Below, piece by piece: positions 4,330 to 33,488 of a stretch of 35,998 nucleotides of DNA. The position numbers and the translations under genes were made by a program. The stretch is from the NCBI GenBank assembly GCA_036387335.1, contig DASVTZ010000223.1, forward strand, positions 1 through 35,998. The letters are read 5' to 3'. Positions within the stretch are counted from its first letter, which is position 1, and each line of letters starts with the position of its first letter. This DNA is from Longimicrobium sp. (GTDB taxonomy: Bacteria > Gemmatimonadota > Gemmatimonadetes > Longimicrobiales > Longimicrobiaceae). The notes under the pieces are model-generated. The model was given only the letters and a program-made list of their open reading frames with translations. It was not told the origin of the DNA and did no database searches.

Positions 4330-4398
4330 GCTCCGGGACTCCGGGATGGTGAGGCCGAACGGGGCGAGGACAGCAGTTTGCGGGCCAGGGAACGGCGG

Positions 4399-4462
4399 TG
4401 CGTGAGTGCGTGAGTGCGTGAGTGCGTGAGTGCGTGAGTGCGTGAGGGCGTGAGGGCGTTGG
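4399..4462. repeat. Octamer tandem array, TGCGTGAG x6 plus two degenerate units
   Basis: Six perfect TGCGTGAG units (4399-4446) are followed by GGCGTGAG and GGCGTTGG. Read on the minus strand (the coding strand of the adjacent vWA gene) it begins CCCAACGC and continues as (CCTCACGC)/(ACTCACGC). The same design recurs at 26721-26755 (same orientation) and at 27036-27060 and 33428-33460 (opposite orientation). It lies about 70 bases before the vWA start codon. Confidence 0.85.
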
Positions 4463-12940: not shown

Positions 12941-13285
12941 ATGACGATGACGACACGAAACCGTACGGACGTACTGCAGGGGACGCTGGGGATGCTGGTA
13001 CTGCGCACGCTCAAGGTGCGCGGCCGGCTGCACGGCTACGCCATCAGCTCAGACATCCAGCGCGTCTCCGCCGAGCTGCTGCGCGTGGAGGAGGGCTCGC
13101 TCTACCCCGCGCTGCACCGCATGGAGCAGGAGGGATGGATCGCCAGCGAGTGGGGGATGACGGAAAAGAACCGCCAGGCCCGGTTCTACTCGCTCACGCC
13201 GGCCGGCGAGGCGCGGCTGGCGCAGGAGCAGGAGAGCTGGGCGCGACTCACGCTGGGCGTGCACCGGGTGCTGGGGTTCGCGTGA
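12941..13285 (+). CDS. PadR-family transcriptional regulator
   Basis: A 114-residue winged-helix repressor of the short PadR type. The core is recognisable: VLQGTLGMLVLRTL (helix 1), HGYAISSDIQ (helix 2), then EEGSLYPALHRMEQEGWIASEW (recognition helix and wing) and ARFYSLTPAGEARL. The ATG at 12941 directly abuts GGGG; the in-frame ATG at 12947 has better spacing and may be the true start. The gene is followed, after two 7-bp tandem arrays, by an ADOP permease. PadR plus ADOP permease is a recurrent pairing in Acidobacteriota and Gemmatimonadota, so it probably represses this operon. The effector is unknown. Confidence 0.92.
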   Translation: MTMTTRNRTDVLQGTLGMLVLRTLKVRGRLHGYAISSDIQRVSAELLRVEEGSLYPALHRMEQEGWIASEWGMTEKNRQARFYSLTPAGEARLAQEQESWARLTLGVHRVLGFA

Positions 13286-13292
13286 GGAACTG

Positions 13293-13341
13293 AAGTGCTA
13301 AGTGCCAAGTGCTAAGTGCCAAGTGCCAAGTGCTAAGTGCT
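13293..13341. repeat. 7-bp tandem array AAGTGCY x7
   Basis: Seven consecutive heptamers (AAGTGCT or AAGTGCC), exactly in register from 13293 to 13341, begin 8 bases after the padR stop. The array is in the transcribed leader between padR and the permease gene. It is not a CRISPR: there are no spacers. Confidence 0.9.
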
Positions 13342-13367
13342 GAACAGCAACCCGGCAAAGCAGTTCA

Positions 13368-13430
13368 GGACTTCGGACTTCGGACTTAGGACTTAGGACT
13401 TAGGACTTAGGACTTAGGACTTAGGACTTC
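13368..13430. repeat. 7-bp tandem array GGACTTM x9
   Basis: Nine heptamers in register: GGACTTC x2, GGACTTA x6, GGACTTC. The array has the same period as the one at 13293-13341 but a different unit. It ends 60 bases before the permease start. Tracts of this kind can change copy number by slippage, altering the spacing between the two genes. Confidence 0.9.
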
Positions 13431-13490: not shown

Positions 13491-16160
13491 ATGGGCTGGT
13501 TCAAACGATTCGCCAACCTGGGCCGCCGCGACGGGGTCACGAACGAGATCGACCGCGAGCTCGACTTCCACCTGGCGGAGCTCACCGACGAGCTGATGGC
13601 CGGGGGGATGAGCGAGGAGGAGGCCCGGCGCGAGGCGCGGCGCCGCTTCGGCAACCCGGCCGTGCAGCGGGAGCGCACGCGCGACGTCGACGTCATGGTC
13701 TGGCTGGAGTCGCTGGGCGCGGACCTGCGCTACGCCCTCCGCTCGCTGCGCGCCAGTCCCGGCTTCACGCTGGCCGCGGTGCTCTCGCTGGCGCTGGGGA
13801 TCGGCGCGAACACCGCCATCTTCAGCCTGGTGGACGCGGTGCTCCTCCGCAGCCTGCCTGTGAGCCGCCCCCAGGAGCTCCTGCAGGTGAGCATGGACGG
13901 GCGCGACAACACCTTTTCCAACCCGTTGTGGGAGGAGGTCCGCGACCGGCAGAAGGCGTTCTCGTCGGTGGCGGCGTACTCCAGCAACCGCTTCGAGATG
14001 GCGCGTGGCGGCGAGTCGCGCCGGGTGGACGGGGCTTGGGTGAGCGGCGCCTACTTCGCCACGCTGGGAGTGAGGCCCGCCGCCGGGCGCCTGCTGGGCG
14101 CCGCGGACGACCGGCGCGGGTGCCCCGCCGTGGCGGTGCTCGCCCACGCGTTCTGGCAGAGCGCGTACGGCGGCGACCCCGGCGTGGTGGGGCGCACCAT
14201 CTCGCTGAACGGATCGCCCGTGGAGGTGATCGGCGTGGCGGCGCGCGGCTTCTCCGGCCTGGAGGTGGGGCGGGCCGAGCGGATCTTCGTTCCCATCTGC
14301 GCCCAGGACGCCATGGACCCCCTGGGCGACGGCGGCCTCTCGGAACGGGGGCGCTGGTACCTCCAGATCGTGGGCCGCCGCGCACCCGGGCTGGACGACG
14401 CCGCGGTGGCTGCCCGCCTGGCGGCGGTGGCTCCGTCCATCTTCGCGGCCACGGTGCCGGAGTACTACCCCCCGGACGCGCGGCGCGAGTACGTGCGCAC
14501 CGCCCTGACGGCGCGCACCGCCGCCAACGGCGACTCCTCGCTGCGCGAGAGCTACCGCACCGCGCTGCTGGCGCTGATGGGGGTGGTGGTGCTGGTGCTG
14601 ATGGTGGCGTGCGCGAACCTGGCGAACCTCCTGCTGGTGCGCGGCACCGTGCGCCGCCGGGAAATCGCGGTGCGCATCGCCATCGGGGCGGGGAGGGCGC
14701 GCCTGATCCGCCAGCTCCTCACCGAGAGCATGGTGCTGGCCACCCTGGGCGCGGCGCTGGGAGTGCTCTTCGCCCTCTGGTCCACGCGCCTCCTGGTGAG
14801 CCTCCTCTCCACCTCGTCGCGCCCGGTGTGGCTGGACCTGTCGCTGAACGGGCGGGTGCTGGCCTTCGCGGCGGCCGTCACCCTGGTCACCAGCCTCCTC
14901 TTCGGGCTGGCGCCGGCGTGGCAGGCCGCGCGGGGCGAGCCGCACGGACTGCTGCGGGGGCAGGTGCGCGGCAGCGACGCGGCGCTCGGCCGCGGCGCCG
15001 GGCGGGCGCTGGTCGTGGGGCAGATCGCGCTGTCCATGGTGCTGGTGGTGGGCGCGGGGCTCCTTCTCTCCACCTTTTCGCGGCTCCAGCGGCTCGACCC
15101 CGGCTTCGACCCCAAGGAAGTGCTGATCGTTTCGGTCGGCGGGTCCGCCCGACAGCTCTCCCCGCCGGCGCGGCTGGCCATGCAGCAGCAGGTGCTGGAG
15201 CGGCTGCGCGCGCTGCCGGGGGTGCGCGGCGCGGGCGCGGCGGATCTGACGCCGATCGGCGGCTCCATGTGGAACACGGACATCAAGGTGGACGGGTACC
15301 AGCCCGCCAAGCCGGAGGACACCATGGTGTGGCTGAACGCCGTGGGCGACGGCTACTTCGGGGCGATGGGCACCCGCCTGCTGGCCGGGCGTGACTTCGC
15401 GCCCGGCGACCGCGAGGGCTCGCCCCCCGTGGCGGTGATCAACCAGGCGATGGCGCGCCGCATCTTCGGCGCGGCCCAGCCGGTCGGGCGGCGGATCCGG
15501 TACACCGCCGGCCCCATGGAGCCCATCGAGGTGGAGGTGGTGGGGGTGGTGGAGGACGCGGTGTACCGCTCGCTGCGCGACGGGGGCGAGGCCACGATGT
15601 ACCTGCCGGCCGGCCAGCAGGAAAAGGCTCCGCTCAACTTCGTGGTCCGCGGCGGCGATCCGCAGTCGCTGGTACGCCCGGTGGGCGCGCTGCTGCGGGA
15701 CGCGGCACCCGGCGCCGTCTTCGAGCTCCGCACCCTCTCCGACCAGGTGGCCGCCTCGCTCCTGCGCGAACGGCTGCTCGCCACCCTCGCCGCCTTCTTT
15801 GGCGGGCTGGCGCTGCTGCTGGCGGTGCTGGGGCTGTACGGCACGGTGGCGTACTCGGTGGCGCGCCGCAGCACCGAGATCGGCATCCGCATGGCGCTGG
15901 GCGCGCCCGGCCGCCGCGTAGTGAGGATGGTGCTGGGCGACGTGGTGCGGATGGTGGCCCCCGGCGTGGTGCTGGGCCTCGCGCTGTCGCTGGCGATGAG
16001 CCGCTTCGTCTCCTCCTTCCTCTACGGCCTGGAGGCGACGGACCCCGCGGTGATGGGCGCCGCGGCCCTCGTGCTCGCCCTGGCCGCGCTCGCCGCGGGC
16101 GCGGTCCCCGCCTCCCGCGCCGCGCGAGTCGATCCGATGGTGGCGGTGCGGGCGGAGTAA
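13491..16160 (+). CDS. ADOP-type ABC transporter permease (MacB/FtsX-like)
   Basis: An 889-residue permease. Residues 1-75 are the cytoplasmic ADOP N-terminus ([21 protein letters not shown], then [13 protein letters not shown]). TM1 (~85-110, [20 protein letters not shown]) is followed by a MacB-type periplasmic domain (~115-355), three TM segments (~365-490), another TM (~505-530), a second periplasmic domain (~535-755) and three C-terminal TM segments (~765-885) ending [14 protein letters not shown]. The family exports lipoproteins, peptides or amphiphiles by a mechanotransmission mechanism with a LolD/MacB-type ATPase, but no ATPase gene is next to it, so that partner must be elsewhere. 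It lies downstream of padR, separated by heptamer arrays. The cargo is unknown. Confidence 0.92.
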
Positions 16161-26720: not shown

Positions 26721-26755
26721 AGTGCGTTAGTGCGTTAGTGCGGGAGTGCGTTGGG
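26721..26755. repeat. Octamer array (AGTGCGTT type)
   Basis: AGTGCGTTAGTGCGTTAGTG, then CGGGAGTGCGTTGGG, directly after the moxR stop. Its reverse complement begins CCCAACGCACTC and is a member of the octamer family at 4399-4462, 27036-27060 and 33428-33460. With 27036-27060 it flanks the 26833-27030 element in inverted orientation. Confidence 0.8.
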
Positions 26756-27035: not shown

Positions 27036-27060
27036 CCAACGCACTCACGCACTCACGCAC
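27036..27060. repeat. Octamer array next to the DUF58 start
   Basis: CCAACGC followed by ACTCACGC x2 and AC, ending 8 bases before the DUF58 start codon and occupying the place where a ribosome binding site would be. It is the same family as 4399-4462, 26721-26755 and 33428-33460. Confidence 0.8.
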
Positions 27061-27068
27061 TTCCGTTC

Positions 27069-30879: not shown

Positions 30880-30909
30880 TGCCCCTCCCCCAAACTGCTG
30901 GGGGAGGGG
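30880..30909 (+). terminator. Perfect 12-bp hairpin after the 181-residue gene
   Basis: GCCCCTCCCCCA (30880-30891) and TGGGGGAGGGGC (30898-30909) pair perfectly around AACTGC. TGTTCTTTCCTT follows, a weak T-rich tail. It marks the change into the lower-GC block with the peptide/radical SAM genes. The same arms recur at 35963-35994 with a different loop. Confidence 0.6.
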
Positions 30910-31025
30910 CATGTTCTTTCCTTATTTGGGCAGGCAGGCACGACCTTCAACAGAAATATGGCTTTTTGTGCGCGATTCAATTACCATCGAAATGGACCGT
31001 GGTCTCTCTGCTTCTCTCTTGAACC

Positions 31026-31030
31026 GGAGG
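31026..31030 (+). promoter_or_regulatory. Ribosome binding site fixing the start of the precursor peptide gene
   Basis: GGAGG lies exactly 6 bases before the ATG at 31037, the best Shine-Dalgarno site in this part of the window. It decides the start: the frame is open for 42 codons further upstream (to 30911), but that part has no such site. Confidence 0.75.
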
Positions 31031-31036
31031 TGCTTG

Positions 31037-31243
31037 ATGACACGCGAATCTATCACGACACAGGCGCGGAACGCTCGCGTGCTTGCCGAGGAGCGGTCGC
31101 ACGGCGCGGGCGGGGTTATGGGGAAGGAGACGGAAAGTCCGCACCAGGCACCCGCCGGCCCCCATCAGGCTCCTGCCGGTCCGCAGCAGGCACCCGCCGG
31201 CCCGCAGCAGGCACCCGCCGGTCCGCAGCATAAGCGCAAGTAG
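31037..31243 (+). CDS. Candidate RiPP precursor peptide with four P-H/Q-Q-A-P-A-G heptads
   Basis: A 68-residue peptide gene. Residues 1-34 form a polar, charged leader-like part (MTRESITTQARNARVLAEER...). Residues 35-62 are four heptads PHQAPAG, PHQAPAG, PQQAPAG, PQQAPAG, followed by PQH and a basic KRK tail. The repeat has no Cys, Ser or Thr, so thioether or azole chemistry is excluded in the core; only carbon or side-chain modification of Pro, Gln, His, Ala or Gly is possible. At the DNA level the units are 21 bp with synonymous differences (GGC/GGT, GCA/GCT, CCC/CCT), so they are not a fresh slippage product. A radical SAM gene starts 12 bases after its stop. No signal peptide, transporter or protease is adjacent. 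I know no named family with this repeat. It could instead be a low-complexity structural peptide. Confidence 0.62.
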   Translation: MTRESITTQARNARVLAEERSHGAGGVMGKETESPHQAPAGPHQAPAGPQQAPAGPQQAPAGPQHKRK

Positions 31244-31255
31244 CGGGGGCTGATC

Positions 31256-32635
31256 ATGCGTTACCTTGTGCTGAACCCGCCCTACATCATGAAAGAGGGA
31301 CAGGTGATCCCACCGGCAGCAGCAATGCTGCCGATGGGCCCTCTGGGAATCGCCACCGAACTCGTGGAACGGGGGCATGAGCTCGACTACTTGGACTTTG
31401 CCTTCGCCGAGTCGCTACCCGATGAAATCGACGCAAGTGAATACGACGGCGTGCTCATCGCGATCCATACCCTGCGCAACGTGCCGACTGCGAAAGAGCT
31501 TTTGAACCGGGTGAAGGGCGCATCCTACGTGGTTGCGGGGGGGAATGTGTGTTCCGAACTCGGAAAGGAGGATCTGGGCGGAGTTGGGGTATTCGCGGAT
31601 GCGGTGTTCAGGGGGTACGCGCACGGCCACCTTGATCGGATCGAGAGTGCGACGCAGGGTGACATCAAGGCCGGCTCCGCTTCTAGCCGCATGCCCGCGC
31701 CAAACCTATCCCTGCTCACCGCTGAGTTGCGAGATGTGTATTGGGAGCGATCGAGCGCACGCTATCCGATCATCGGACCCGGCGGTTTCGGGTGTGCGTG
31801 GTCATGCAACTACTGCACGGCCAAGATGTTGTCCCGACGCGTCGAACGGGACTTCTCGGTGATCGAGCGCGAGATTGATCAGGCGAAACGCCTCGGATAC
31901 CGCGAGCTGTGGTGCGTCGACAACATCTCGTTGGTCGACGCGGACTTGGCCCTGGAGTTCGATCAGATGGTAGAGCGTGCGGGCCTTACGTGGCTCGGTA
32001 TGACTCGCGCGGAAACGGTGATTGTGGCGCGGAACCGGCTACCGAAGTTCAGGCGGCTGACGGACATTGCGCTCGGGGTGGAAGCGCCGGCGCGCCAGCT
32101 CGTGACGCTGAACCGAGGCGAGCGCAGGGACAACGACGAGCGACTTCACCACGCTTTCGGGCTGCTGCATGATTCCGGTATTACTTCCACCGCATTCGTC
32201 ATGCTGGATCTTCCTGGCTCCTTAGATGCCGACTACTGGGCGCTTGTGGATCTGCTGGCTTACGTTCGACCCGGGAACGTCAGCTGGAGCTTCTTCAACC
32301 CCCCCGCCGTGAAGGCAATCACCCTCGGGCTGGATCTTGCCGCGACTGGGTTTTACCGGTGGCCCCTCGGGTTCGCGCGCATCCCTGACACGCGTGTGGT
32401 ACAATTCGCGATGGTGATCACTGGCACGTGGTGGATGAACTGGGCTCCTGAATCCTTTGTCAGAACCCCGGATCATTTTGGGGTCGTTTTCGATGAGGGA
32501 GAGATCGTCCAGACCCCCGACGCGCGCTCAGTTGTAGGTGACTTGTGGAGCGCATGGGACTTCAATGCCGCGCCGTTACGTCTGCCTGACCCTCCGCATC
32601 TAGCCAAGCCACTACTCGAGAGAACGGGAGCGTAG
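31256..32635 (+). CDS. Cobalamin-binding-type radical SAM enzyme (putative peptide C-methyltransferase)
   Basis: A 459-residue enzyme. The N-terminal ~135 residues have a B12-binding-like Rossmann pattern (MRYLVLNPPY, PLGIATELVERGHELDYLDF, YDGVLIAIHTLRNVPTAKEL, SYVVAGGNV). The radical SAM core has C180-A-W-S-C184-N-Y-C187 (CxxxCxxC) in PGGFGCAWSCNYC, followed by (beta/alpha) segments with WCVDNISLVDADLALEFDQM and ALGVEAPARQLV. The ~70 C-terminal residues are family-specific. Class B radical SAM enzymes of this layout methylate unactivated carbons, including proline in bottromycin. GGGGG lies 6 bases before its ATG. The gene has noticeably lower G+C and more AT-ended codons than its neighbours, suggesting transfer. 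The peptide encoded 12 bases upstream is the natural substrate candidate; this is inference. Confidence 0.83.
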   Translation: MRYLVLNPPYIMKEGQVIPPAAAMLPMGPLGIATELVERGHELDYLDFAFAESLPDEIDASEYDGVLIAIHTLRNVPTAKELLNRVKGASYVVAGGNVCSELGKEDLGGVGVFADAVFRGYAHGHLDRIESATQGDIKAGSASSRMPAPNLSLLTAELRDVYWERSSARYPIIGPGGFGCAWSCNYCTAKMLSRRVERDFSVIEREIDQAKRLGYRELWCVDNISLVDADLALEFDQMVERAGLTWLGMTRAETVIVARNRLPKFRRLTDIALGVEAPARQLVTLNRGERRDNDERLHHAFGLLHDSGITSTAFVMLDLPGSLDADYWALVDLLAYVRPGNVSWSFFNPPAVKAITLGLDLAATGFYRWPLGFARIPDTRVVQFAMVITGTWWMNWAPESFVRTPDHFGVVFDEGEIVQTPDARSVVGDLWSAWDFNAAPLRLPDPPHLAKPLLERTGA

Positions 32636-33056
32636 CCCCGCGGCGCTGTCGCAGGAGTATTAGACTGCGCGCGGCTCCGGGCTACAACTCCCCCTCCACT
32701 TCCGGAACTCGTCGGACGCCGATCTGGCATGTCTGGGGTATGGTATGGGTGGCGGCGGGATCACCGGTTGCCGCCCGCTACATCCGCCGACATCCATAGG
32801 TCCGTAGGTGATTGATCGCGCCTGTGTCTACGTTGCTCGGGTCGAAGTAACTGCACAACCCACCCTGGCGTTTAACGCGCACTGGACACACAAGCTCCCG
32901 TAGCGTTCATCACACCGCCGATTACTCCGCTCCATCGCCTTGCACCCATCTTGGACCCCTCAGCGTTGCACGCGGGGGGATGGCGGTCTATCCTTTCGCG
33001 CGCGCCACTCGGCGCAAGATTCCACTCGGGTTCGCCGGGCCCTCGGTCGCCCCCAA
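32636..33056. other. Gene-free lower-GC stretch after the radical SAM gene
   Basis: About 420 bases with no convincing gene in either direction. An imperfect hairpin near 32747-32775 (GGGTGGCGGCGG against CCGGTTGCCGCCC) could end the peptide/radical SAM transcript. Base composition is mixed and lower than in flanking genes, and short out-of-frame stretches suggest degraded coding sequence, but I cannot name a source. Confidence 0.45.
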
Positions 33057-33409
33057 TTTGTCATCCTGAGCGACGCGCTGCGCAGGTGCTTGTGTTTCTC
33101 TGATCCGTGGCGCGGAGCGAAGGATCTACTGCGCGAGACTGGAGGCCTGGTCCGTCACGCCGGGGCCCTTGGTTCGCCGGCTAGATCCTTTGGTCGCCGC
33201 CGGAGGACAGCGTGCGTGCGGGGGTCTGGGTGGCGGCTCCCTCAGAGGGTGTTTAAAAACGTCAATCCGGCAGATCCGATGGCTCGCGCGAGAGCAAGAT
33301 CAATCTTCAGTTGTGCGGAAGATGATTACTTCTTGCTTCCCTGCGGCATCGCGAGACTACGGATTGAGGGCCCCAGTGGAGTTTTTAAACACCCTCTCAG
33401 GATGACAAA
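33057..33409. mobile_element. 198-bp inverted-end element (copy 2), interrupted by a MITE
   Basis: TTTGTCATCCTGAG (33057-33070) and CTCAGGATGACAAA (33396-33409) are perfect 14-bp inverted repeats. Internal blocks GAGCGAAGGATCTACTGCGCG and CGCCGGCTAGATCCTT match copy 1 at 26833-27030. Subtracting the 150-bp insert and the 5-bp duplication leaves 198 bp, the same length as copy 1. Confidence 0.75.
33246..33395. mobile_element. 150-bp MITE with 15-bp inverted ends and CTCAG target duplication
   Basis: AGGGTGTTTAAAAAC (33246-33260) and GTTTTTAAACACCCT (33381-33395) are perfect terminal inverted repeats. CTCAG flanks both sides (33241-33245 and 33396-33400) as a target-site duplication; removing element plus one CTCAG restores GGCTCCCTCAGGATGACAAA, the expected end of the host repeat. 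It encodes no protein, so it must be mobilised by a transposase elsewhere. The end resembles several insertion sequences, but I do not assign a family. Confidence 0.85.
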
Positions 33410-33427: not shown

Positions 33428-33460
33428 CCAACGCACTCACGCACTAACGCACTCACGCAC
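33428..33460. repeat. Octamer array before the symporter gene
   Basis: CCAACGC then ACTCACGC, ACTAACGC, ACTCACGC and AC, ending 28 bases before the symporter start. It is a member of the octamer family and, as at 4399-4462 and 27036-27060, lies in the 5' leader of a gene in the orientation CCAACGC-first on the coding strand. Confidence 0.8.
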
Positions 33461-33488
33461 TTCCCCTCCCCCCAACCCGCTCCCCGCC

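Follow-up and report, generated by a model that had tools for sequence, protein, structure and literature searches.

In the tvg cluster of Halomonas anticariensis, a single radical SAM enzyme, TvgB, modifies every unit of the repeat core of the peptide TvgA, a C-terminal tandem array of TVGG, to give cyclopropylglycine (PMC9062424). Class-B radical SAM enzymes C-methylate peptide residues, proline included, in bottromycin (BotRMT1-3; PMC11285071). MgmA (PDB 9ccb), the glutamine methylase of MCR, has a wide cleft able to hold an extended peptide (PMC11796369). We compared these systems with a pair of genes, encoding a short repeat peptide and a B12-type radical SAM protein, in the genome of Longimicrobium sp., a soil-type bacterium (NCBI GenBank assembly GCA_036387335.1, contig DASVTZ010000223.1). 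The whole stretch of DNA that was analysed, 35,998 nucleotides, is hereafter referred to as the window.

Going by the published description, the pair is like TvgA/TvgB in combining a C-terminal tandem-repeat core with one radical SAM enzyme in the cluster. The tvg cluster differs in having five genes, among them an oxygenase and putative peptidase/transporter genes; its repeat is four residues long and unrelated, and its product is unlike the C-methylation that we propose below. BotRMT1-3 are B12-type radical SAM enzymes, as ours would be by its fold, and act in C-methylation of a ribosomal peptide, at proline among other residues, but bottromycin has a single core, a follower peptide and a large cluster, and the enzyme described here matches no RiPP C-methylase model. 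One feature of the RiPP layout, a short precursor gene with a likely leader and a core beside a putative modifying enzyme, is present; two others, a known maturase family for the enzyme (a supporting trait that is not strictly required) and an in-cluster protease or exporter (common, not universal), are absent. The pair would resemble a multicore radical-SAM RiPP system in its working; as no maturase family model matches and no homologous pair came up in the collections searched, we have not filed it as a member. Among the papers listed by our searches of open-access literature, none described a system with this heptad core, which does not contradict the statement in the initial annotation that no class with it is known.

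The same annotation had described a 68-codon gene preceded by GGAGG six bases before its ATG and ending in four heptads and a KRK tail, followed 12 bases later by a 459-residue protein with a CxxxCxxC motif. We confirmed each of these elements from the sequence, with both genes on the same strand (Table 1).

Table 1. Features of the two-gene locus (positions in the window).
Feature	Position	Strand	Remarks
Stem-loop resembling a terminator (upstream gene), at the segment's left edge	30880..30911	+	G251 homology ends at 30910
Strain-specific low-GC segment with both genes, missing in G251 and G361	30911..32959	.	~2 kb
Shine-Dalgarno GGAGG of the peptide gene	31026..31030	+	Spacer of 6 to ATG at 31037
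Putative precursor peptide gene	31037..31243	+	68 aa; likely leader (1-34) + repeat core
Four heptad repeats P-[HQ]-Q-A-P-A-G, 21-nt units, then PQHKRK	31139..31222	+	
Orphan B12-binding-domain/radical SAM protein	31256..32635	+	459 aa; CxxxCxxC at C180-C187

The peptide has the sequence MTRESITTQARNARVLAEERSHGAGGVMGKETES-(PHQAPAG)2-(PQQAPAG)2-PQHKRK, in which the boundary between leader and core likely falls after about 34 residues. At the DNA level, the tandem array (31137-31230) has a score of 153, the highest among the arrays of the window. Six heptad residues (P1, Q3, A4, P5, A6 and G7) are invariant, and H or Q at position 2 is the sole residue difference among the copies. The 21-nt unit varies in five columns, each of them at codon position 3 (hypergeometric p = 0.001, with random placement as the null). 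Read in the coding frame, the four heptads have an identity of 0.95; this DNA gives 0.57-0.67 when read in its other frames, and no other part of the window exceeds 0.60. Because their differences fall on third codon positions only and the repeat is near-perfect in the coding frame alone, the heptads are very probably translated; their sequence has been preserved through DNA divergence, under coding constraint. A longer form of the peptide starting at 30911 (110 aa) was rejected, since the ribosome-binding site suits the start at 31037 and position 30911 is the junction of the segment. Scans with a DNA pattern of the heptad motif revealed no second locus in the same genome and none in viral contigs, and a plasmid search with the peptide gave no match.

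The composition of the pair sets it apart from its surroundings. The GC content at third codon positions (GC3) is 0.74 in the peptide gene and 0.72 in the enzyme gene versus 0.93-0.96 in five neighbouring genes, and the local GC content is about 61% at the pair, down from some 66-82% in the upstream DNA. The genes flanking the segment are common to the sister genomes, and the 185-aa gene upstream of the pair is found in 10 out of 10 genomes of the genus. Two sister genomes, G251 and G361, have kept both flanks (about 84-97% identity in the aligned pieces) but lack the segment itself. The slot is occupied there by a gene for a nucleotidyltransferase (Pfam NTP_transf_2, 1.7e-8), which has a weak, sub-cut-off MarR-like match at its N-terminus and is a PADLOC candidate (PDC-M05A, 2.7e-35); of these slot loci (L080 in G251, L081 in G361), that of G361 has an additional 85-aa ORF. 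Because the pair lies in a segment missing from the sisters, with another gene in its place, the slot is variable and the cassette self-contained. To judge from its contents, the slot seems to be a place where accessory genes, possibly with a role in defence, turn over. Assignment of the pair to a known anti-phage system was rejected, as PADLOC gave no match for either protein.

The two genes are the only ones in the segment, which encodes no protease, no transporter or exporter and no second enzyme, in line with the earlier remark that no export or protease gene adjoins the pair. A consensus search for a sigma-70-type promoter of the pair found none. The joint arrival of the peptide and enzyme genes is well supported by their shared atypical GC3 and their location in the same sister-absent segment, and this anatomy argues well for a partnership. 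On these sequence grounds, the pair would be a compact, recently acquired foreign cassette of 1.6 kb and of an unusual kind, known from a single genome. Its occurrence in one genome, the change of several usually conserved enzyme residues (see below) and the variability of the slot could also be accounted for by a decaying import: a radical SAM gene and a proline-rich repeat ORF would have come in together and since ceased to work as a system. We consider this very improbable, given that neither reading frame is interrupted, the peptide gene has a ribosome-binding site, the repeats change at third codon positions only and the cluster cysteines are kept. Taken together, the leader, the multicore C-terminus, the enzyme gene 12 bp further on and the common origin likely constitute a precursor-maturase arrangement.

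The enzyme matched Pfam Radical_SAM (PF04055) at 2.1e-10 (41.4 bits, above the cut-off of 29.5), with C180, C184 and C187 as the cluster cysteines. Its match to B12-binding (PF02310) had an E-value of 7.5e-5 and 23 bits, under the cut-off of 32.1; with the N-terminal domain alone as the query, the E-value was 8.6e-6. No domain was detected by Pfam in the C-terminal 110 residues, and hence no RRE was seen. We then compared the enzyme with 19 distant relatives. The cluster cysteines, G274 and E276 are kept, whereas the usual H98 and E121 are replaced with V and Y, respectively, and R178, G267, K290, G318, P362 and G363 are changed as well. Since these relatives were mostly picked by a motif of the C180-C187 region and are 16-22% identical to the enzyme, the altered residues are a sign of divergence and not proof that cobalamin binding has been lost. 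The B12-like N-terminus claimed in the initial annotation is upheld as a fold, while cobalamin use is not assured, the domain match being below the cut-off and the usual residues changed.

A comparison of the enzyme with RiPP enzyme families, suggested earlier as a check, gave no matching family model. Nothing in NCBIfam reached the family level: the best matches were HpnR (35.8 bits, cut-off 650), BchE (29.6, cut-off 481) and PhpK (25.9, cut-off 600), and up to E = 1 no RiPP-maturase model (e.g. TIGR03975, TIGR04428 or NF050148) appeared. HpnR, a lipid methylase, acts on a hopanoid, BchE on a porphyrin and PhpK on a phosphinate, all of them non-peptide substrates. This would fit an enzyme that acts on a lipid, a cofactor or a small metabolite, with the repeat peptide independent or regulatory and co-transferred by chance. 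So would the short ORFs near the distant relatives, none of which encodes a peptide like the heptad one, although at about 20% identity this says little; two weakly repetitive ORFs (L039 and L050), not adjoining the enzyme gene, were judged unrelated. The model matches are nevertheless generic, as the HpnR score illustrates, the segment holds no further biosynthetic gene, and precursors and their maturases are usually encoded in just this way, in a tight operon (here with a 12-bp gap) that includes a peptide of leader plus repeats. We thus regard a non-peptide substrate as unlikely and retain the peptide as the candidate substrate.

An AlphaFold2 model of the enzyme, built with the 19 distant relatives, had a mean pLDDT of 64.7. 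Confidence was high over much of the core, made up of the Rossmann domain and the SAM barrel, and was good for the N-terminal Rossmann domain. Two regions were weakly modelled: the surroundings of the cluster motif (residues 167-197) and the C-terminal part (residues 348-459), with pLDDT values below 50 in the last ~110 residues. By its modelled fold, the enzyme would be a class-B-type radical SAM protein with putative cobalamin binding. Foldseek ranked AprD4 first (4e-13), followed by MgmA (2.6e-12), TsrM, MtaB and CysS, with OxsB lower; by sequence, the alignment profile also matched AprD4, 9ccb, TokK, TsrM, OxsB and CysS. AprD4 (PDB 6fd2) has a similar length and domain order, but it is a non-methylase with an aminoglycoside-type substrate (paromamine) and is 14% identical to our enzyme. 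MgmA methylates a glutamine, and the heptad has an invariant glutamine; it differs in acting on a single site of a large archaeal protein (PMC11796369), and its model TIGR04014 is not among the family matches of our enzyme.

Given the altered residues of the cobalamin domain and the match to AprD4, radical chemistry of another kind is conceivable. The peptide could be the substrate of a non-methylating reaction (dehydrogenation, epimerisation, cross-linking or another rearrangement) by an enzyme whose cobalamin domain is degenerate or serves no methylation, as is the case for some enzymes with this type of fold, AprD4 among them. AprD4 is a 1,2-diol dehydratase, and TvgB, the best repeat-peptide precedent, makes C-C bonds and adds no methyl group; the changes at H98 and E121 and the sub-threshold B12-binding score point the same way. 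The B12-binding match of the N-terminal domain is still significant when it is searched alone, however, and the confidently modelled Rossmann domain likewise speaks for a retained cobalamin-type fold. On balance, such a reaction seems improbable to us, and C-methylation is kept as the leading candidate.

Searches for homologues were directed at several collections. In its own genome, the enzyme has no second copy (next match, E = 0.12), and a search of the family Longimicrobiaceae returned one generic match of 24% identity. Two overlapping samples of Gemmatimonadota, of about 395 genomes each, contained no homologue at E-value limits of 1e-20 or 1e-8. Exact enzyme peptides were found in none of 84,980 species genomes, and a degenerate motif run over the same species-genome contigs yielded only 54 distant relatives (22-34% identity in the best segment). 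In samples of Myxococcota, Chloroflexota and Planctomycetota, the best matches had 28-30% identity over residues 175-364 (Planctomycetota). Exact-peptide and degenerate-pattern scans of viral contigs gave nothing close, the phage search gave nothing, and the plasmid search gave one Streptomyces protein (24%) with neighbours that resemble small-molecule genes. The closest match across the genome, plasmid, phage and viral searches was about 30% identical over the SAM core. For several of the pattern scans (viral and genome contigs), artificial variants of the window protein had been added to the alignments as extra rows; these are non-natural and shaped the pattern only. The orphan status of the enzyme holds for the collections searched, as the genome samples are partial and relatives of 35-60% identity may escape the pattern scans if they do not contain the motif used. 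Within these collections, the enzyme appears to be very divergent, of a lineage without close known relatives. No homologous precursor-enzyme pair was found in the collections searched, so that the association comes from one genome.

We propose that the peptide serves as a precursor, in which about 34 N-terminal residues make up the leader and the four heptads a C-terminal multicore. The enzyme, with its cobalamin-type Rossmann domain and SAM TIM barrel, would bind the peptide and modify one invariant residue per heptad by radical chemistry. Proline and glutamine are candidates for this residue because both have precedents: the likeliest chemistry would be C-methylation at Pro, as in bottromycin, or at Gln, as by MgmA. 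Host enzymes would carry out proteolysis and export, or else the product would stay intracellular; the cassette itself would have been gained horizontally as a two-gene RiPP-like unit. The enzyme-substrate relation, the methylation, the modified residue and the host proteolysis and export are all our inferences from this analysis. We give slightly better than even chances to the reading in which the peptide is the substrate of the enzyme, with C-methylation as the likeliest chemistry, in an unusual multicore RiPP-like pair; for methylation specifically, the chances are a little below even. Tentatively, the pair may represent a new minimal RiPP class, in which a stand-alone, heptad Pro/Gln-rich multicore peptide and one orphan B12-type radical SAM enzyme, carried on a 1.6-kb mobile cassette, give the same modification in every heptad (e.g. 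C-methyl-Pro or C-alpha-methyl-Gln). Should the enzyme modify each heptad, two components would form a compact system that modifies unactivated carbons iteratively along a repeat peptide, and such chemistry would come from an enzyme lineage lacking close known relatives. The readout of a co-expression experiment would be simple, with the repeats as a built-in tally of modification events.

Other repeat elements were observed in the window. A 150-bp MITE-like insertion (33246-33395) has terminal inverted repeats AGGGTGTTTAAAAAC / GTTTTTAAACACCCT and is flanked by a 5-bp direct repeat, CTCAG; the corresponding site of G251 is empty, with a single CTCAG. Two microsatellites with 7-bp units, (AAGTGCT)n and, next to it, (AGGACTT)n, occupy 13293-13429, between the predicted genes at 12941-13285 and 13491-16160. 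Tandem repeats of 8 bp, of the kind ACGCACTC / GTGCGTGA, occur at 4398-4459, 26721-26752, 27039-27061 and 33430-33461, the last of them directly before a transporter gene and at the same place in G251.
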